From a virus, in the IMG/VR virus record IMGVR_UViG_3300042471_001276, positions 1 through 64,000 of that record: a stretch of 64,000 nt of DNA, one strand, 5' to 3'. Shown one piece after another: positions 15,965 through 37,900 of this stretch; position 1 is the first letter of the stretch, and every line of letters begins with the position of its first letter. The position numbers and the translations under genes were made by a program. The notes under the pieces were generated by a model, which was not told where the DNA came from, made no database searches, and worked only from the letters and a program-made list of their open reading frames with translations.

Positions 15965-18238
15965 ATGGCTAAAAATATTGTAATCACCCCAAGAGTATCT
16001 GTACCCAACATATCATTTGACAATGGAGGGGAAATTACGTTGACGGTGACCCAAGGTGCAAGGATAAATTTTAATACTTCTTCTCAATCCAATCTACTTT
16101 ACATTGATATTTCTAACAAAATAATTTCTGTTGGAAATACTCTTAACGTTAAAGATAATTTAACCGTTGGCGGAACTCAAGTTATTAATGGAACTGCAAA
16201 TTGGGTTGGTCCAACAACTGGTATTTTGGGGAGTCAAGGTGCTAAAGGAGGCACAGGGGCTCAAGGTAGTGTAGGTGAAATAGGGTCTACAGGTGCACAA
16301 GGTACTCAAGGACCTAATAATACAACTCAAGGAGCGCAAGGAGCCACAGGAAATGTTCAAGGTGCTCAAGGACCTCAAGGCGATATTGGAGCGACAGGCC
16401 CCCAAGGACCAACAGGTTCACAAGGTAGTTTGGGACCAACAGGTGCACAAGGTAATACAGGCGCACAAGGTAATACAGGAGCCCAAGGTCATACAGGAGC
16501 TCAAGGAGCAACAGGACCAACAGGACCAACAGGAACTCAAGGTAACACAGGACATCCAGGAGCTCAAGGAGCAACAGGACCAACAGGACCAACAGGAACT
16601 CAAGGTAACACAGGACATCCAGGAGCTCAAGGAGCAACAGGACCAACAGGAAACACAGGAGCCACAGGACCAACAGGTTCACAAGGAGGAATAGGACCAA
16701 CAGGACCAACAGGTGCACAAGGTAATACAGGTTCAACAGGACATCCTGGTGCTCAAGGAAACACAGGTCCAACAGGGCCAACAGGTAACACAGGACCAAC
16801 AGGTAATACAGGCGCTCAGGGTTCAACAGGGCCAACGGGACCAACAGGTTCACAAGGAGCAACAGGTCACCCTGGAGCTCAAGGAGCCACTGGTACTACA
16901 GGACCAACAGGTAATACAGGACCAACAGGTAATACAGGAGCCCAAGGAACAACAGGTCCGACAGGACCAACAGGTTCACAAGGAGCAACAGGTCACCCTG
17001 GAGCTCAAGGAGCCACTGGTACGACAGGACCAATAGGTAATACAGGACCAACAGGTAATATAGGTGCTCAGGGTTCAACAGGACCAAAGGGACCACAAGG
17101 TTCACAAGGAGCAACAGGTCACCCTGGTGCACAAGGTTCAGGAGGTGCAACGGGAGCACAAGGTTCAACAGGAGGACAAGGAGCCCAAGGTTCTCAAGGA
17201 GGTGTGGGACCAACAGGAGCCCAAGGTAATCCTGGTGCAACAGGACACCCTGGTGCACAAGGTGCTACGGGTGTAACAGGAGCACAAGGTTCAACAGGAG
17301 GACAAGGAGCCCAAGGTTCTCAAGGAGGTGTGGGACCAACAGGAGCCCAAGGTAATCCTGGTGCAACAGGACACCCTGGTGCACAAGGTTCAGGAGGTGC
17401 AACGGGTAATCAGGGTGCTCAAGGAGTTGGTGCATATCAAGGAGCACAAGGGGCTCCTGGTGTGAGTGCTGGAGGACAAGGAGCCCAAGGAGCTCAAGGT
17501 ACAAATGGAACTCCTGGAGGACAGGGTGCACAAGGTGCGATAGGTTTTACACCAGGTACCTCAGGACCACAAGGAGCCCAGGGTGCTGGAGGACCAGGTG
17601 GAGGTCCAGGACCAACAGGTGCTCAAGGTAACGTTGGACCAACGGCAACAACTTGTTATTCCCATTCAGGATGTGCTGGTTCTAGTGTTCTCCAAGCTTG
17701 TAATTGCGTTCAAACCGCATTTTATTATCAACAAACTTCGTTTAACGACTTCCAAGGAATAAAATATAATAATTTAACCAATTGTCAAAACTCTACTTGT
17801 GATTGGAATGGTACTTATGATTATGTTGGTAGTGCTGCGGCTGCTTATGGTGCTTTAGGTTATAGTTGTGGTAGTGGTGGTACAGGATATCTTTGTGGTG
17901 GTTCACCATATTCAGATGAGAGACTAAAAAATGGAATTGAGACTCTTAAAAATGCTTTAGAAAACATAATGAAGATTGAGGCGGTTGAATATGATTGGAA
18001 TGAAAATTTAAGAGAATACGAATATTTCAAAACCCAACAAAAATTACATACAATAGGACTTATTGCCCAAAACGTTAGATTATATTATCCTGAAGCGGTA
18101 AGAATTAATAATGACGGGTATTATTCAATTGATTATACAAAATTAAATGCTGTGTTGGTAGAAGGTATCAAAGAGCAATCAATATTTATCGAAAGTATCG
18201 ATAAAGAATTAGATTATATAGAAACAAAACTTAGTTAA
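15965..18238 (+). CDS. Collagen-like tail fibre 1 with S74 chaperone
   Basis: 757 aa. A beta head domain (residues 1-85) is followed by about 157 Gly-X-Y triplets (88-558), mostly GPT, GAQ, GNT and GHP. Then comes a Cys-rich tip (about 560-645, with C-x4-C and several further Cys) and a peptidase S74 intramolecular chaperone (about 650-757) starting '[12 protein letters not shown]'. The serine of SDERLK is the expected self-cleavage residue. Chaperones of this type trimerise phage fibres and are then cut off. The Cys-rich tip, absent from the two paralogues, could be the receptor-binding part. Confidence 0.9.
16220..17640 (+). repeat. Gly-X-Y coding repeat tract 1
   Basis: Degenerate 9-nt units encoding GXY, with near-identical longer copies (for example around 16500-16560 and 16560-16630; also around 17130-17250 and 17250-17370). 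Could expand or contract by recombination. Confidence 0.9.
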
Positions 18239-20430
18239 TGGCTAATATTATAATATATCCCCAAGGTAATGTAGGAAATACGAATCCACAAGTTGTTTTC
18301 AATGACGGTTCTACCACATTGCAATTCAATGTTGGAGTATCGACATTAACTCTTTCATCTAGTACTGTATCTTCAGGTGTTCAATTAGGACCACAAAATG
18401 TTGTTGTTTCAGGCGCTAGTGCGCAAGGTACAAGTATCTCAGAAGGAAACGTATACGTTGGTGGGGTTAAAATGATTAACTATGACGCAACTTGGGTTGG
18501 TCCATCATCAGGAATTGCGGGGGCACAAGGACCAACAGGTGCACAAGGTAATACAGGTGCACAAGGTAACAAAGGAGGACAGGGTTCTCAAGGAGCAACA
18601 GGAAGTTTAGGAGCGGATGGAGCTCAAGGGCCAATTGGACCTCAAGGGTCTCAAGGAAATGTTGGTTTCCAAGGAACACAAGGTTTCCAAGGACCAACAG
18701 GACCAACAGGTGCTCAAGGTGCTAATACAGGGGCGCAAGGAAATACAGGAGCACAAGGAGGACAAGGGGCTCAAGGTACCCAAGGTGCGAACACGGGAGC
18801 TCAAGGAAACACAGGTCCAACAGGACCAACAGGTGCTCAAGGGACACAAGGAGCCAATACAGGTGCTCAAGGAAACACAGGTCCAACAGGACCAACAGGT
18901 GCTCAAGGGACACAAGGAGCCAATACAGGTGCTCAAGGACCAACAGGACCACAAGGGGCTCAAGGACCTACTGGCCCGACAGGGGCACAAGGTCCAACTG
19001 GACCACAAGGAGCTCAAGGTTCGACAGGTGCTCAAGGTACACAAGGTGCTAATACAGGAGCCCAAGGTGCTTTAGGTTCTCAAGGAGCACAAGGACCAAC
19101 AGGACCACAAGGAGCACAAGGTACAACAGGACCACAAGGTACAACAGGACCACAAGGTGCTCAAGGTACACAAGGGGCTAATACAGGTGCCCAAGGTGCT
19201 TTAGGTTCTCAAGGAGCACAAGGTCCAACAGGACCACAAGGTGCTCAAGGGACAGGAGGACCACAAGGTACAACAGGACCACAAGGTGCTCAAGGGTCTC
19301 AAGGAGGAAGTACAGGAGCCCAAGGTGCTTTAGGTTCTCAAGGAGCACAAGGTCCAACAGGACCACAAGGTGCTCAAGGGACAGGAGGACCACAAGGGCC
19401 AACAGGTATATCAGGAGCTCAAGGTACACAAGGAGCCAATACAGGAGGACAAGGAAATGTTGGTAATACAGGAGCTCAAGGTGCTGTAGGGTTCCAAGGA
19501 GCTGGAGGTCCAGGAGGACCACAAGGTACAACAGGACCACAAGGTGCTCAAGGGTCTCAAGGAGGAAGTACAGGAGGACAAGGAAATGTTGGTAATACAG
19601 GGGCTCAAGGCGCTGTAGGGTTCCAAGGAGCTGGAGGTCCAGGAGGACCACAAGGTTCTCAAGGACCACAAGGAGCCCAAGGTTCTCAAGGTGGAAATAC
19701 AGGTGCTCAAGGACCTTTAGGAAATGTTGGTGCTCAAGGTGCTGTAGGGTTCCAAGGAGCTGGAGGTCCAGGAGGACCACAAGGTTCTCAAGGACCACAA
19801 GGAGCCCAAGGTTCTCAAGGTGGAAGTACAGGTGCTCAAGGCGCTCAAGGTTCTCAAGGAGACGGTGGAGGTACTTTATCTGGACCACAAGGAGCTCAAG
19901 GAGCCCAAGGTGCGGTAGGTACACCTGGTGCAACAGGAGCCCAAGGTGCGGCAGGTAACAATGGTACAACAGGAGCCCAAGGTGCTCAAGGACCCTCAGG
20001 TGGAATACCAACAGGTAATACAGGAGCACAAGGTGGACCAGGACCAACAGGACCACAAGGTGCTCAAGGTTCACAAGGACCACCATCAGATAGAAGATTG
20101 AAAGATAATATCAAGAAACTTGAAAATGTTATTGATACTGCAAAAAAAATACAAGGGGTTTCTTTTGAATGGGATGAAACTCATGAAAAAATATCAAAAC
20201 ATGAGTATATCCACTTCAAGTCTGCGTTTTCTGGAACTGCAATTGGATTCATTGCTCAAGAGATAGAAAAAGTTGTCCCTGATGTTGTATTTACAAGTGA
20301 CGATGGATTCAAATCGGTTGAATACGGACAATTAGTTAGTATTGGTGTTGGAGCGGTTCAAGAACAACAAACAAGGATAGAATCTATTTATAAAAGAATA
20401 AACAAACTTAAAGAAGTAATAGGTGGCTGA
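18238..20430 (+). CDS. Collagen-like tail fibre 2 with S74 chaperone
   Basis: 730 aa. Start overlaps the previous stop by one base. Beta head (1-94), then about 520 residues of Gly-X-Y broken by regular GANTGAQG-type interruptions, then an S74 chaperone beginning '[12 protein letters not shown]' near residue 617. The head shares 'NIIIYP' and 'WVGPSSGI' features with fibre 1, so the genes are paralogues. No Cys-rich tip: the collagen runs straight into the chaperone, so after cleavage the fibre would end in collagen. Confidence 0.9.
18520..20090 (+). repeat. Gly-X-Y coding repeat tract 2
   Basis: Long tandem array with near-identical blocks of 60-120 nt (for example around 18800-18860 and 18860-18930). 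Confidence 0.9.
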
Positions 20431-22507
20431 GAATATAATTATAACGCCAGGTAGTGGTACAATCGATTTTTACGATTCAGGTAATACTTTAACGACATTA
20501 ATTGTTGAATCAGGTAGCTTAAAATTTAAAAGAGCTGGGGGAACATACCTTGCTTTGGATAATACATATCCAAACTTTAAAGTTACTCTTGGTAATTTAT
20601 ATGTAGGAAACGCACTTCAAAATAACTTTGGAAATGTAATTAACTCTACAGGTTGGTTGGGAAATCCATTACCAACAGGTCCACAAGGTGCTCAAGGTTC
20701 ACAAGGTGCTCAAGGTTCACAAGGACCCACAGGACCACAAGGAGCCCAAGGTAATCAAGGGGCTCAAGGACCAACAGGGGCTCAAGGACCAGTTGGACCA
20801 ACAGGTGCTCAAGGGCCACAAGGAGCTTTAGGTCCTCAAGGACCAACAGGTCCTCAAGGAGCACAGGGAGGACAAGGTGCACAGGGAAACCAAGGAGCAC
20901 AGGGAAATACAGGTTCACAAGGAACTACAGGAGGACAAGGAGCCCAAGGAACACAAGGACCGACAGGACCTCAAGGAGCCCAAGGAACTACAGGAGGACA
21001 AGGAGCCCAAGGAACACAAGGACCGACAGGACCACAAGGTGCTCAAGGAACAGGAGGTACCCAAGGAGCAACAGGACCAGTGGGTCCGCAAGGGTCACAA
21101 GGACCAACAGGACCACAAGGTGCTCAAGGAACAGTTGGACCATCACCAACAGGTGCTCAAGGGTCTCAGGGACCTGCAGGAGGACAAGGAGCTCAAGGTC
21201 CAAAAGGACCACAAGGTTCACAAGGACCTGTAGGACCTCAAGGTTCACAAGGTGCGGTTGGAGCATCACCTGTAGGACCACAAGGGGCCCAAGGAACTGC
21301 AGGAGGACAAGGAGCTCAAGGTCCAAAAGGGCCACAAGGTTCACAAGGACCTGTAGGACCTCAAGGTTCCCAAGGAGCAGTCGGAGCATCACCTGTAGGA
21401 CCACAAGGAGCCCAAGGACCTGGTGGAGTACAAGGAGCTCAAGGTCCAAAAGGACCGCAAGGTTCACAAGGACCAACAGGACCTCAAGGTTCCCAAGGAG
21501 CAGTCGGAGCATCACCTGTAGGACCACAAGGAGCCCAAGGACCTGGTGGAGGGCAAGGAGCCCAAGGTTCACAAGGACCTCAAGGTGCTCAAGGTCCAAA
21601 AGGACCACAAGGTGCCCAAGGTAATACGGGAGCATCACCTGTAGGACCACAAGGAGCCCAAGGACCTGGTGGAGGACAAGGAGCCCAAGGTTCACAAGGA
21701 CCTCAAGGTGCTCAAGGTCCAAAAGGACCACAAGGAGCCCAAGGTAATACAGGAGGTTCACCAGGAGGAGCCCAAGGTGCTCAAGGTGGTGGTGGAGGCC
21801 AAGGAGCTCCAGGACCTATAGGACCTCAAGGTGCTCAAGGACCAAAAGGACCACAAGGAGCCCAAGGTAATACAGGAGGTTCACCAGGAGGAGCCCAAGG
21901 TGCTCAAGGTGGTGGTGGAGGCCAAGGAGCCCAAGGAGCCCAAGGAGCAAAGGGTGCTCAAGGGGCTAAAGCGGTACCAGGAGCTCAAGGAGCTCAAGGA
22001 GTTCAACCGACATATGCTCAAGGTGCACAAGGTGCTCAAGGTATTAACAGAGGGGCTGGACCAACAGGTGCTCAAGGAGGAACAGGACCTGACAACCCTG
22101 GACCACAAGGTGCTCAAGGACCAGGAGGAGGTCCAGGACCAACAGGTTCACAAGGAGCAACAGGGTCGCCAGGACCTTCAGATGTTAGATTAAAGAAAAA
22201 CATTAAAAAAATTGAAAGTCCGTTATCTAAGTTATTAAAATTAAGAGGTGTTTCATTCATTTGGAATTCCAAAAATCCAAACTTAGAGAATACAAAAGAT
22301 ATTGGTTTTGTGGCACAAGAAATTGCTCACGTTATACCTGAATTAGTATTTAAAGAAAATAACGGAAAAGATTTATATAAAGTAAAATATGGTGATATAA
22401 TAGCACTTTGTTTAGAAGCTGTTAAAGAACATGAAGAAATGATAAATTCTAAAGAAGAACGATTAAGTAAATTAGAATATAAGGCAAAAGAAAAGGGGTT
22501 AATCTAA
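20423..22507 (+). CDS. Collagen-like tail fibre 3 with S74 chaperone
   Basis: 694 aa, GTG start overlapping fibre 2 by 8 nt. Beta head (1-82), about 500 residues of Gly-X-Y with more GPQ, GPK and GGG triplets than its paralogues, then S74 chaperone from '[12 protein letters not shown]' near residue 586. Lys-containing triplets are commoner here, which matters if lysine or threonine is modified. Ends at a bidirectional terminator shared with the convergent metallopeptidase operon. Confidence 0.9.
20680..22170 (+). repeat. Gly-X-Y coding repeat tract 3
   Basis: Near-perfect internal copies of about 100-120 nt (for example around 21180-21290, 21290-21400 and 21400-21530). Confidence 0.9.
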
Positions 22508-34884: not shown

Positions 34885-34892
34885 TATATTTG
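34885..34892 (+). promoter_or_regulatory. Host-type -7 element TATATTTG, 3 nt before ATG
   Basis: TATATTTG-TGT-ATG; implies a leaderless mRNA for the adenosyltransferase gene. Confidence 0.5.
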
Positions 34893-34895
34893 TGT

Positions 34896-35450
34896 ATGGC
34901 AAAGAAAATATACACAAAAACAGGAGACCAAGGTCTAACTTCATTATTGGGGGGTACTAAAGTACCAAAGAACGATTGGAGAATTGAGGCATATGGTACG
35001 GTAGATGAATTGAATTCATTTATTGGTCTTTTAGGGGACAAATTACAAAGTAACAACTCTTCATTTTCATTCAGTTTTTTAGAGTTAGAAAAAATTCAAA
35101 ACAATTTATTCAAAATTGGTTCTGTTTTGTCTTATGACATGACCGCTGATTTAAAAATTGAACTACCAAATGTAACCGAAGCGGACGTTAAGAATTTGGA
35201 AGACTGGATGGATACAATGGAGTTAACATTACAGCCTTTGAAAAACTTTATCATACCAGGTGGACACGAGGCGGTTTCATTGGCTCATGTGTGTAGAACA
35301 GTATCAAGAAGAGCGGAAAGAAATACCGTACAAGCAATTCAATATCCAATCATTATGAAATACATCAACAGATTGAGTGATTACTTCTTCATGTTGAGTA
35401 GATATATTGCTTCAGAGGTTGGAGTAGAGGAAAAAATTTGGAAAGGTTAA
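34896..35450 (+). CDS. ATP:cob(I)alamin adenosyltransferase, PduO/MMAB type
   Basis: 184 aa from ATG 34896. 'KIYTKTGDQGLTSLLGG' at the N-terminus (ATP-binding P-loop-like), 'AYGTVDELNSFIG', and 'CRTVSRRAERNTV' plus 'YINRLSDYFFMLSRY' are the conserved blocks of PduO-type enzymes, which make adenosylcobalamin. Full length for the family. In a phage it could support a B12-dependent ribonucleotide reductase, of host or phage, during DNA synthesis. Own host-type promoter; converges with the DUF192 gene. Confidence 0.9.
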   Translation: MAKKIYTKTGDQGLTSLLGGTKVPKNDWRIEAYGTVDELNSFIGLLGDKLQSNNSSFSFSFLELEKIQNNLFKIGSVLSYDMTADLKIELPNVTEADVKNLEDWMDTMELTLQPLKNFIIPGGHEAVSLAHVCRTVSRRAERNTVQAIQYPIIMKYINRLSDYFFMLSRYIASEVGVEEKIWKG

Positions 35451-35800
35451 TCCAAGATATATTCAACTGAATCACCAGCCTGAATGTTTTTGATTTCACA
35501 GGTACCACCTTCGACTTCTAATACTATATTACCATTACCACAATAAGAAGGACAGTCAAACTCGTCATCACAAGGAGGGCAACTATGATGAATATTCACA
35601 ATCACGTTATTTTTAATAACAATGATGTCTAATGGTATTAAACAATTTTTCATCCAAAAACATTGTTTCTTACCTCCCATCAAAAACAATAAACCATTAA
35701 AGGTTTCATCGAAAGTTTTCCCCATCATTCCAATTGATTGGGATTTTTCATCGATAAGTGTTTTGACTTTAAATATATTTTTATTAATTTTGACTTTCAT
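35447..35800 (-). CDS. DUF192 family protein
   Basis: 117 aa from ATG 35800. 'GMMGKTFDETFNGLLFLM' and 'FWMKNCLIPLDIIVI' are the DUF192 hallmarks. An insertion with four Cys (about residues 75-88) is unusual and may bind metal. Function unknown, sometimes linked to envelopes. A late-type TATTTAT lies 5 nt before its ATG and overlaps the start region of the divergent Nudix gene. Confidence 0.85.
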   Translation of the reverse strand: MKVKINKNIFKVKTLIDEKSQSIGMMGKTFDETFNGLLFLMGGKKQCFWMKNCLIPLDIIVIKNNVIVNIHHSCPPCDDEFDCPSYCGNGNIVLEVEGGTCEIKNIQAGDSVEYILD

Positions 35801-35805
35801 ACTAA

Positions 35806-35812
35806 ATAAATA
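35806..35812 (-). promoter_or_regulatory. Late-type TATTTAT element, 5 nt before ATG
   Basis: TATTTAT-TTAGT-ATG on the minus strand for the DUF192 gene. Confidence 0.5.
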
Positions 35813-35814
35813 CA

Positions 35815-36234
35815 ATGGAAAAGAAAAGGTACGTAGGTGTTATGGTTAAATGTAAAGATAAGATACTTCTTTGCAAAAGAAATAACCAAGGTTCATTCCC
35901 AGGTATGTGGTCCATCCCTGGCGGAAAGTTGGAAGATAATGAAACCACACAAGAGGGGGCAAAAAGAGAATTCTTAGAGGAAACCGCTGTAGACATTTCT
36001 GATATGGACTTACAATTCATTGGTTTAATACCAAGACATACTCGTGACGGTAAGAAGGTTAAAGGTCTTATGTATGTGTATCTTTTGACTGTTGAAAATG
36101 AAATCGAACCTGATTTGGAAAAAGCGATTGACGGTAATGAACATACTGAATGGGATTATTTTCCATTAAGTGGAATCAAACCTGAAAATAGCGGTGAATA
36201 TATGTATAAACTTGCAGAAATTATATTAAAATGA
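35815..36234 (+). CDS. Nudix hydrolase
   Basis: 139 aa. Nudix box at residues 37-59: G37, E43, R51-E52, E55-E56, with Ala instead of the usual Gly at position 58. MutT-like length and 'FPGMWSIPGGKLE' context suggest a nucleotide pyrophosphohydrolase, perhaps cleaning oxidised dNTPs. The start is 14 bp from the divergent DUF192 start. ATGA overlap with a TM microprotein downstream. Confidence 0.9.
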   Translation: MEKKRYVGVMVKCKDKILLCKRNNQGSFPGMWSIPGGKLEDNETTQEGAKREFLEETAVDISDMDLQFIGLIPRHTRDGKKVKGLMYVYLLTVENEIEPDLEKAIDGNEHTEWDYFPLSGIKPENSGEYMYKLAEIILK

Positions 36235-36341
36235 TTACAGTAGTATTGTCATTAATTGGTGTTGTTATATTTGTTGGAGTATATGGATGGATTTCAATCA
36301 ACAGACAAATAAAAAATATGATTGATGATATTGATTTTTAA
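36231..36341 (+). CDS. 36-aa single-TM microprotein
   Basis: One membrane helix (residues 2-20) then a polar, acidic-ended tail. ATGA overlap with the Nudix stop supports translation. Function unknown. Confidence 0.5.
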   Translation: MITVVLSLIGVVIFVGVYGWISINRQIKNMIDDIDF

Positions 36342-36352
36342 AAAAAATGTTC

Positions 36353-36360
36353 TATCTTTG
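36353..36360 (+). promoter_or_regulatory. Host-type -7 element TATCTTTG of small RNA 1
   Basis: TATCTTTG right after the end of the coding operon. Confidence 0.6.
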
Positions 36361-36363
36361 TAG

Positions 36364-36428
36364 AACTTTTGGGGGAAATGGAGATATTTATATGTTCATG
36401 TCCGAAAGGACGAACACCCCAAAATAAG
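36364..36428 (+). ncRNA. Candidate small structured RNA 1
   Basis: Between a promoter and the next promoter. TTTTGGGG (36367-36374) pairs with CCCCAAAA (36417-36424); inside, TGTTC/GAACA and GTCC/GGAC close a GAAA tetraloop at 36404-36407. An 11-codon ORF (36393-36428) also fits but the pairing looks stronger. Confidence 0.55.
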
Positions 36429-36444
36429 TTTCATAAAAAAAAGA

Positions 36445-36476
36445 TTTGATTGTTTGAAAAAACATTCTTACCTTTG
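36445..36476 (+). promoter_or_regulatory. Promoter of RNA unit 1 (TTTG-N20-TACCTTTG)
   Basis: TTTG at 36445 and TACCTTTG at 36469-36476. The 43-nt promoter block is nearly identical to that at 36885-36916. Confidence 0.75.
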
Positions 36477-36534
36477 TGAAACGAAAATCCCATAAGAAAG
36501 TTTTCGAGAGAATTCAAACCTTGTGGGATTTTTT
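36477..36534 (+). ncRNA. Leader RNA with terminator hairpin, unit 1
   Basis: AATCCCATAAG (36486-36496) pairs over 11 bp with CTTGTGGGATT (36520-36530), followed by T6. May be a free small RNA or an attenuator for the tRNA downstream. Confidence 0.6.
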
Positions 36535-36541
36535 ATCTGAA

Positions 36542-36550
36542 GTTCTTTAA
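36542..36550 (+). promoter_or_regulatory. boxA-like element before tRNA
   Basis: GTTCTTTAA between terminator hairpin and tRNA; similar to rRNA antitermination boxA (GCTCTTTAA in E. coli). Confidence 0.45.
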
Positions 36551-36563
36551 TATAAAAATATAT

Positions 36564-36636
36564 CGCGAGATAGTAGCAGCGGTAGCTCGCAAGGCTCATA
36601 ACCTTGAGGTCGGGGGTTCGATTCCCTCTCTCGCAA
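36564..36636 (+). tRNA. tRNA-Met (CAU), initiator-type
   Basis: Cloverleaf with acceptor stem CGCGAGA/TCTCGCA, whose first pair is a C-A mismatch as in bacterial initiator tRNA-fMet. Anticodon stem CAAGG/CCTTG with loop CTCATAA (anticodon at 36597-36599), variable loop AGGTC, T-arm GGGGG-TTCGATT-CCCTC. The anticodon stem has two rather than three consecutive G-C pairs. The D-stem (GTAGC/GCTC) seems to have a bulged T. CCA is not encoded. Confidence 0.88.
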
Positions 36637-36641
36637 CTAAG

Positions 36642-36690
36642 AATAGGTTGACTACGTTAGTCGTAAAATTACGGTTCCCTATTTTTTTTT
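36642..36690 (+). terminator. Structured terminator after tRNA
   Basis: AATAGG (36642-36647) pairs with CCTATT (36678-36683) around inner hairpins GACTA/TAGTC and GTAA/TTAC, then T9. Confidence 0.75.
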
Positions 36691-36698
36691 ACAAAGAG

Positions 36699-36730
36699 TT
36701 TGACAAACTGAAAATGTTTTTCTATCTTTG
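36699..36730 (+). promoter_or_regulatory. Host-type promoter of small RNA 2 (TTTG-N20-TATCTTTG)
   Basis: TTTG 36699-36702, TATCTTTG 36723-36730. Confidence 0.75.
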
Positions 36731-36732
36731 TA

Positions 36733-36860
36733 GTCCAATCGGGTAAAACTGATTGGTGTCTTTGACAAACAGACGAATTAGCCTGTCCTATAAAGTGTAG
36801 GAGGTCAACAAGATAGTTGGATGATACTATCAAGGAAGAATGAATTCGTTTAAATCATCA
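36733..36860 (+). ncRNA. Candidate small structured RNA 2
   Basis: No ORF. Hairpin CCAATC/GATTGG (36735-36756), then a stem ACGAATT/AATTCGT (36773-36779 with 36843-36849) that encloses hairpins CCTA/TAGG and GATAGT/ACTATC, so a three-way junction. No strong terminator is visible; the 3' end is uncertain. Confidence 0.6.
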
Positions 36861-36884
36861 GTCAAAAAAAAAGTTTCTAAAAAG

Positions 36885-36916
36885 TTTGATTGTTTCCCAA
36901 AACATTCTTACCTTTG
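36885..36916 (+). promoter_or_regulatory. Promoter of RNA unit 2 (TTTG-N20-TACCTTTG)
   Basis: TTTG 36885-36888, TACCTTTG 36909-36916; near copy of the unit 1 promoter. Confidence 0.75.
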
Positions 36917-37027
36917 TGAAACAAATGAAGGAGACAGGTTGTAAAGATTCCTGTTGTTGATTATGAGACCTTTGGTTGATTATGAGACTTACTCAGGTTG
37001 TAAAGATTCCTTTCTCCTTCATTTTTA
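36917..37027 (+). ncRNA. Leader RNA with A-B-B-A repeats and terminator, unit 2
   Basis: ATGAAGGAGA (36925-36934) pairs with TCTCCTTCAT (37013-37022), then T5. Between them AGGTTGTAAAGATTCCT occurs at 36936-36952 and 36995-37011, and TTGATTATGAGAC at 36957-36969 and 36976-36988. Free small RNA or attenuator of the large RNA downstream. Confidence 0.65.
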
Positions 37028-37034
37028 AAAGTAC

Positions 37035-37044
37035 GTTCTTTGAA
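37035..37044 (+). promoter_or_regulatory. boxA-like element before large RNA
   Basis: GTTCTTTGAA, matching the element before the tRNA. Confidence 0.45.
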
Positions 37045-37049
37045 TTAAA

Positions 37050-37900
37050 ATATTGGCGGTCTATAGTCGTTAAATAAACCATGAAAGTGGTATAAAGTGA
37101 CTTAGTTTGGTTGAACTAAGTTGCGGCTTCCGAAAGGGAGCTCGAGTAGACAAGCGAGATATCGTTAGACCTTTAGTACCGAGGGTGACACTGTAGGGAA
37201 AATGGTTTGACGACCAAGCGATGTGGGTCGTTTGGTTGAGGTGGGAACACCAATAAGAATAACTCGTAGAACTGTTGCAAGACATATGGTCATCCAACCA
37301 TACGATTGCGGAGTTCAATATCAGGGTGGTCTTAAAATCGAAAGATAAGACCTCGTACAGGTGGTGCTGTTGTAGTCCTTAACTTGACTCTACCAAGAGT
37401 TCTGTTATGAAGATGACCCAAAATATCGAGGCAGGGATGTCTCAGAGAGTAGTTTAGTATTCTGTTGTTCAAAAGACGACGGAGCTGGCGACGGGCCACT
37501 ACTTTCTTAATCCACAAACCACTTACTTTGTTAATTTTGGTTTAACAAAACTATAAATCAGATAAAGGAAAAGTGCTCGTCAGTTCTGGATGACAGGTCA
37601 CTACATAGTCGTGAGATGTTCACGGCCATGAAGGGTCCCAAGCCCGACATGATTTTCACCAAAGTTCTCTAATCTCGCAAGGATTAATTGGGGTGGCAAC
37701 CTCGAAGAGTGATGAGTAATGAGAGAGTGATTCAGAACTTAAGGATTGGTTAATCTAATTGACCGTGACTGAGAGTTACTACTCAAAAGGTAGTGGAAAT
37801 CGGAGGAAATAATAATCTCCCGTAAAGATTCTCAAATTAAGGTGTATTCTCAGCCTGAATGCCAAATTGACCCTGACTATTTCCATAGTTGGGGTTTTTT
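37050..37900 (+). ncRNA. Large structured noncoding RNA, about 850 nt
   Basis: No credible ORF over about 850 nt and base composition richer in G than neighbours. Many local helices: 37100-37121 (8 bp), 37127-37140 (GAAA loop), 37210-37231, 37240-37251 (GGAA loop), 37261-37315 (nested), 37328-37352 (with a GAAA-capped inner stem), 37527-37549 (8 bp), 37610-37624, 37778-37794, 37802-37820. It ends in an intrinsic terminator at 37871-37900. Size, lack of coding, several GNRA loops and a tRNA next door recall the GOLLD and ROOL giant RNAs of phages, but I cannot confirm membership. rRNA, tmRNA and RNase P signatures were not seen. The 5' end is uncertain (after boxA, about 37050). Confidence 0.75.
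37871..37900 (+). terminator. Intrinsic terminator of the large RNA
   Basis: CCCTGACTAT-TTCC-ATAGTTGGGG, 10 bp with two G-U pairs, then T6. Confidence 0.88.

Follow-up and report, generated by a model that had tools for sequence, protein, structure and literature searches.

Why does a phage place a promoter, a hairpin and a boxA-like sequence, in this order, in front of RNAs that are not translated? The original prediction for this locus was that two such units, one ahead of a tRNA-Met and one ahead of a large RNA, may work as switches: transcription either stops at the hairpin and gives a short RNA, or is carried through by boxA antitermination and gives the stable RNA. We analysed the arrangement in the window, i.e., the whole stretch of 64,000 nucleotides, a 64-kb virus record with tail-fibre genes, and compared it with viral contigs and bacterial genomes. 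The results suggest another answer, namely that phages of Bacteroidota-type bacteria borrow the rRNA transcription machinery of the host to make their own structural RNAs.

A cluster of untranslated RNAs with three leaders

The untranslated units of the window are clustered at 36.3-37.9 kb on the plus strand (Table 1). The large RNA is GOLLD: it scores 335 bits against RF02032 (Rfam gathering score 150), with its conserved 3' domain matching positions 1-416 of the model in full, and its 5' domain, from about 37055, can be aligned to those of two phage genomes of 635-642 kb, LR756502 and LR745206. The presence of a tRNA gene nearby, in a virus record, is a trait of GOLLD members, and the tRNA-Met had been correctly recognised here. 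We take the C1-A72 mismatch of this tRNA to be a trait of initiator tRNAs. Separate terminator-like hairpins lie behind the tRNA and behind GOLLD. The cluster adjoins genes for a cobalamin adenosyltransferase, a DUF192 protein and a NUDIX protein (34890-36231), which are unusual metabolic genes for a phage, and further upstream three long tail-fibre-like genes with related repeats stand side by side (15965-22507).

The two promoters of the form TTTG-N20-TACCTTTG were found exactly where they had been predicted, and the near-identity of the 43-nt blocks that contain them, starting at 36441 and 36881, holds as well (37 of 43 bases agree, and no other block in the window comes closer than 28/43). 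They fit the Bacteroidota promoter consensus TTTG / TAnnTTTG (PMC7366714). The looser pattern TTTG-N17-21-TANNTTTG occurs 19 times in the window, for a mean of 4.4 in shuffled sequences. In the window, no promoter lies between boxA and either the tRNA or the large RNA, and boxA is conserved in relatives, so that neither of the two findings that would have refuted the original prediction was made. A further promoter-like site, with the -7 element TATCTTTG, opens an upstream unit (36330-36430) that leads into a stable hairpin RNA at 36363-36430 (GGGG..CCCC) and has no boxA.

The claim of twin units stands for both of them; what it missed is a third unit between the two, at 36699-36851, with a promoter, a hairpin, a boxA-like site and a small RNA. 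With this unit, the pattern is threefold and not twofold. The small RNA, RNA-c, occurs in 25 dereplicated loci (24 besides the window) among the fetched contigs, between the initiator tRNA and GOLLD and in two length types (e.g., L194, L233, L027, L058, L141). The exact 9-mer GTTCTTTRA precedes RNA-c in 16 of these 25 loci and the core TCTTTRA in 24. For RNA-c, Rfam returned no match at the gathering score in the window and none in L233 under a looser threshold. A closing helix with few compensatory changes is common to eight relatives of one type.

Table 1. Features of the RNA cluster in the window (all coordinates refer to the window).
Feature	Coordinates	Strand	Remarks
Additional promoter-like site, -7 element TATCTTTG	36353..36360	+	no TTTG at -33 (ATTG at 36330)
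Bacteroidota-type promoter, tRNA unit	36445..36476	+	
tRNA leader hairpin with T run, terminator-like, 5' of boxA	36483..36533	+	stem 36483-36496/36520-36533; z -4.0
boxA GTTCTTTAA, tRNA unit	36542..36550	+	
tRNA-Met(CAT), initiator-like	36564..36637	+	C1-A72 mismatch
Likely tRNA terminator	36639..36689	+	hairpin and long T run, the latter read directly; z only -1.2
Promoter, third unit (RNA-c)	36699..36730	+	
RNA-c leader hairpin	36735..36756	+	z -3.7
boxA-like GTGTCTTTGA of RNA-c	36756..36765	+	core TCTTTGA
RNA-c, unnamed structured RNA	36771..36851	+	core CCTGTCCYAT...GTRGGRGGT
Bacteroidota-type promoter, GOLLD unit	36885..36916	+	
GOLLD leader hairpin	36923..37024	+	stem 36923-36934/37013-37024; z -2.9
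boxA GTTCTTTGA, GOLLD unit	37035..37043	+	
GOLLD RNA	37055..37856	+	5' domain variable, 37055 onwards; 3' domain as modelled in Rfam, 37445-37856
GOLLD terminator	37869..37896	+	hairpin and T run; z -4.4

The boxA of phage and host leaders

The order of the elements is conserved, the boxA is specific to one strand, and its sequence is identical to the boxA of host 16S leaders. Both GTTCTTT(A/G)A sites of the window are where they had been reported. The 9-mer GTTCTTTRA alone is not rare there, with 12 copies, mostly elsewhere, for 3.3 expected, so that only its position makes it notable in the window. We therefore turn to the relatives. Two pattern scans of viral contigs gave at least 149 GOLLD loci; 151 oriented loci comprise 121 with a 5' anchor and 30 without one. 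Leaders with at least 120 nt upstream number 120, window included, and 67 after dereplication, with a promoter within reach in 60 of them. The 9-mer lies at most 120 nt 5' of GOLLD in 59 of the 67 leaders, compared with 0.3 on average and never more than 2 in 200 rounds of shuffling, and on the reverse strand it precedes GOLLD in 0 of 67. The exact 9-mer is missing in the other eight, including the close relative LR756502. Of the 30 unanchored loci, 17 extend 700 nt or more upstream; without dereplication, 16 of the 17 show a boxA at -703 to -801, the distance to be expected. Two extra GOLLD patterns found 0 and 2 loci in viral contigs, and both of the latter carry GTTCTTTAA where expected.

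The distance from boxA to GOLLD varies between 17 and 113 nt, which places boxA outside the GOLLD fold; that the 9-mer might be part of this fold was ruled out by this spacing and by its presence before unrelated RNAs. The leaders of one Acinetobacter and one Mycobacterium phage GOLLD (two loci each confirmed with Rfam) show no clear boxA by eye, which makes the arrangement a trait of Bacteroidota-type phages and not of GOLLD as such. In host genomes, the GOLLD scan matched 0 of 148 Bacteroidota and 0 of 250 Bacilli, but it also left its controls unmatched, so these zeros do not establish absence.

The motif extends to other stable RNAs. The 9-mer lies no more than 110 nt from 67 of the 417 tRNA and tmRNA genes of the GOLLD contigs, for a mean of 0.74 and a maximum of 3 in shuffled sequences and 0 on the reverse strand. 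The 31 initiator-like tRNA genes divide into 20 with the exact 9-mer, six with a variant and five with none, and the 9-mer precedes four of the 13 tmRNA genes, at -14/-15. An unbiased scan of new viral contigs for promoter plus boxA gave at least 112 sites; among the matches listed (112), 22 lead into GOLLD, 15 into tRNA or tmRNA and 19 into non-coding sequence of unknown nature, 52 lie in ORFs and four at contig ends. The 52 sites within ORFs indicate that some matches to a pattern of this length arise by chance. Separately, we observed in 17 dereplicated loci an insert, RNA-d (GATTACACCCGCTGGTACAACCAGCGCATGACGTGGATAGGTGAC..GTAATC), between boxA and the initiator tRNA, which is missing from the window. 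It lies just 5' of tRNA-Met in L058, L064, L102, L108, L130, L136, L141 and others, and the four loci scanned have no Rfam match at a loose threshold.

The likeness to rRNA leaders, which had been proposed from the order of the elements, is borne out by the bacterial genomes. Among the matches listed for a pattern of the same type, 16 of 119 sites lie 92-236 nt 5' of a 16S gene. In an unselected sample of the phylum, 13 of 27 Bacteroidota leaders carry the same 9-mer no more than 200 nt 5' of 16S (shuffle mean 0.09), and 20 of 27 carry the wider pattern GTTC[AT]T[TA]RA, which was chosen after viewing the leaders. The exact form is found in 2 of 29 Flavobacteriaceae 16S leaders and the same post hoc pattern in 25 of 29, mostly as GTTCATTRA. 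These counts identify the phage motif with the rrn boxA of many Bacteroidota, in its non-Flavobacteriaceae form.

Leader hairpins and alternative readings

The hairpins predicted in the tRNA and GOLLD leaders are real, each fold being better than all 200 shuffles; the term "terminator" is a label for the GOLLD one. In the window, the tRNA leader hairpin combines a G+C stem with six T, and the GOLLD leader hairpin has only five T behind it, some of them within the stem. A hairpin (dG <= -3) stands between promoter and boxA in 42 of the 60 promoter-bearing GOLLD leaders; the remaining 18 lack it and yet keep boxA. In L027, L058, L060 and L136, the nearest TANNTTTG in the long leaders may be a chance site, and their hairpins were left uncounted. 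A run of at least five T follows the hairpin in only 3 of 42 (window, L059, L123). The sequence of the GOLLD leader hairpin is not conserved among leaders. The outer stem covaries: across 14 large hairpins, 86.6% of cells are paired and 11 of 14 pairs vary on both sides, neither value was reached in any of 500 shuffles, and the true register beats every slide, a result favoured by the derivation of the structure from the same 14 sequences. As a side observation, the two arms of GOLLD leader hairpins (window 36923-37024; L014, L045, L127, L145) share a strand motif, GGTTGTAAAGATTCC or GGTCGTAAAGTTTCC, which gives a symmetric internal loop. This loop is perhaps a double UAA/GAN motif, and GTTGTAAAG also resembles a conserved stretch of 16S rRNA.

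Among the 31 initiator-tRNA leaders, the hairpin TCCCA..GTGGG is found in 18, of which 11 have a run of five or more T. The T-run counts thus make the tRNA hairpin terminator-like in several lineages, and the GOLLD hairpin not. Seven of the 18 tRNA hairpins have the promoter within their loop, and the transcripts of such a promoter are therefore unable to form the hairpin. In L006, L024, L035, L036, L069, L127 and L169, the entire promoter lies inside the loop of the inverted repeat TCCCAC..GTGGGA, directly 5' of the initiator tRNA; read-through from upstream would seemingly fold over the promoter, perhaps as an insulator or an operator. We read the leader hairpin most probably as a structural part of the leader, akin to boxB or serving processing or insulation, and not as the regulated terminator; partial attenuation at the tRNA leader hairpin is possible.

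How do other readings of the units fare? One of them makes the leader hairpin an attenuator under the control of a phage or host factor; boxA would play no part in it and would serve the downstream RNA. The terminator-like tRNA hairpins of the window and of L027, L058, L063, L096 and L136 are in its favour, but the GOLLD hairpins of relatives lack T runs, and we hold this to be unlikely. Less probable still is a structural or processing role of the 9-mer, for instance as an RNase site or a pairing partner of GOLLD, instead of one as a Nus-factor site. This would suit its position immediately 5' of RNAs that require 5' processing, as well as its predicted accessibility, which the partition function does not show to be raised (0.44 unpaired vs 0.47 overall, with 21 of 59 above their own mean). 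The same 9-mer, however, precedes RNAs as unrelated as GOLLD, tRNA, tmRNA, RNA-c and 16S, and does so at variable distances in the case of GOLLD.

The switch of the original prediction, in which the hairpin is an intrinsic terminator giving a short RNA and boxA antitermination permits the stable RNA, could draw on the G+C stem and six T of the window's tRNA hairpin, on the T runs of 11 of 31 initiator-tRNA leaders and on the five T of the window's GOLLD hairpin. It founders on the order of the elements: boxA (36542, 37035) lies 3' of hairpins that end at 36533 and 37024. Because the boxA RNA is absent when the polymerase meets the hairpin, it cannot decide termination there; transcribed after the hairpin, it can influence only the downstream RNA, i.e., the 800 nt of GOLLD, RNA-c or the tRNAs. 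The scarcity of T runs behind GOLLD hairpins, the hairpin-less leaders that keep boxA and the promoters lodged in tRNA hairpin loops all weigh in the same direction, and a boxA-controlled terminator, rejected for its wrong element order and for T runs that are not conserved in GOLLD leaders, appears very unlikely. Finally, chance, or the shared descent of an AT-rich motif copied along with promoters, is barely credible in spite of the near-copy promoter blocks and the 12 copies of the 9-mer in the window, given the shuffle controls (which, with the strand control, rule out a chance origin of the 9-mer), the zero reverse-strand copies and the unrelated downstream RNAs and leaders.

A possible mode of synthesis and its known counterparts

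The reading that we prefer takes the units for separate transcription units of the phage, each with a host-type promoter and a leader of the rRNA-operon type, whose boxA probably recruits host Nus factors; judged on the sequences, we consider this likely. It has against it the eight GOLLD leaders without the exact 9-mer, the rarity of the exact form in Flavobacteriaceae, a predicted accessibility of boxA that is not raised, and the Acinetobacter and Mycobacterium phage leaders. The order is 1) a promoter of the Bacteroidota sigma-A type, 2) an optional hairpin in the position of the rrn boxB, 3) boxA and 4) a stable untranslated RNA, which is the initiator tRNA, RNA-c or GOLLD, and in relatives also tmRNA and other tRNAs. 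In rRNA leaders, boxA is read as RNA by NusB-S10 (PMC10250234, PMC4807359), and for E. coli rRNA the present view is of faster elongation and of a tethering of the 5' end for folding and maturation, the role of boxA in Rho protection being disputed (PMC4807359). By analogy, the nascent boxA RNA of the phage would bind host NusB-S10, which, with NusA, NusG and perhaps SuhB, would build an rrn-type complex on the RNA polymerase. Such a complex could make the polymerase fast and Rho-resistant over untranslated stretches of as much as 800 nt, and could tether the 5' end during synthesis, favouring correct folding and maturation. Assisted folding would make sense for GOLLD, which forms large homo-oligomeric RNA cages (pull-downs have also recovered it together with ribosomes; PMC12286853). 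In the case of a short tRNA, processing seems the likelier benefit, and Rho protection seems little needed.

If units of this kind do recruit Nus factors, a broader and rather doubtful proposal can be made: a whole group of Bacteroidota phages might run an rRNA-like programme in which captured host Nus factors convert the polymerase that makes GOLLD, initiator tRNA, tmRNA and RNA-c; they would chaperone GOLLD into its cage and, during infection, divert NusB/S10 from the synthesis of host rRNA. A conserved rRNA-type leader would tell how GOLLD is synthesised, namely in a state of the host polymerase that otherwise serves mainly rRNA and some CRISPR arrays. A five-letter change in boxA would provide a direct handle on the need of GOLLD for assisted folding. 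The leader would also unite the tRNAs and tmRNA of phages with the small RNA-c in one regulatory class that can be recognised by sequence in metagenomes. The parts, boxA leaders and GOLLD, are known, and their combination is new; at the level of titles and abstracts, the literature gave no description of boxA before GOLLD or phage tRNAs.

Three known systems resemble these units. The nut sites of lambda (boxA-boxB, with protein N) are also a case of boxA carried by a phage. However, the order is reversed in the units described here, with the hairpin before boxA, and these serve stable RNAs instead of delayed early mRNAs. The boxA of CRISPR arrays (Stringer et al., cited in PMC7862264) likewise precedes a long non-coding RNA. 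That of the Legionella Lens CRISPR, GTTCTTTAAAA, is the same string as in the tRNA leaders of relatives such as L027 and is near-identical to the 9-mer; it is described as a working boxA that yields about tenfold more precursor crRNA when placed before CRISPR arrays in Legionella (PMC7862264). The phage units differ from it in the RNA, in their phage origin and in their Bacteroidota-type promoter. The third is the rrn leader with boxB-boxA-boxC (rrnTAC). Phage leaders are unlike it in preceding GOLLD, tRNA, tmRNA and RNA-c, and in often missing the hairpin. Yet they share with it the course from promoter to hairpin, boxA and long untranslated RNA, the hairpin, where present, lying 5' of boxA as in the boxB-boxA-boxC order given in PMC10250234, and their 9-mer is identical to that of Bacteroidota 16S leaders.
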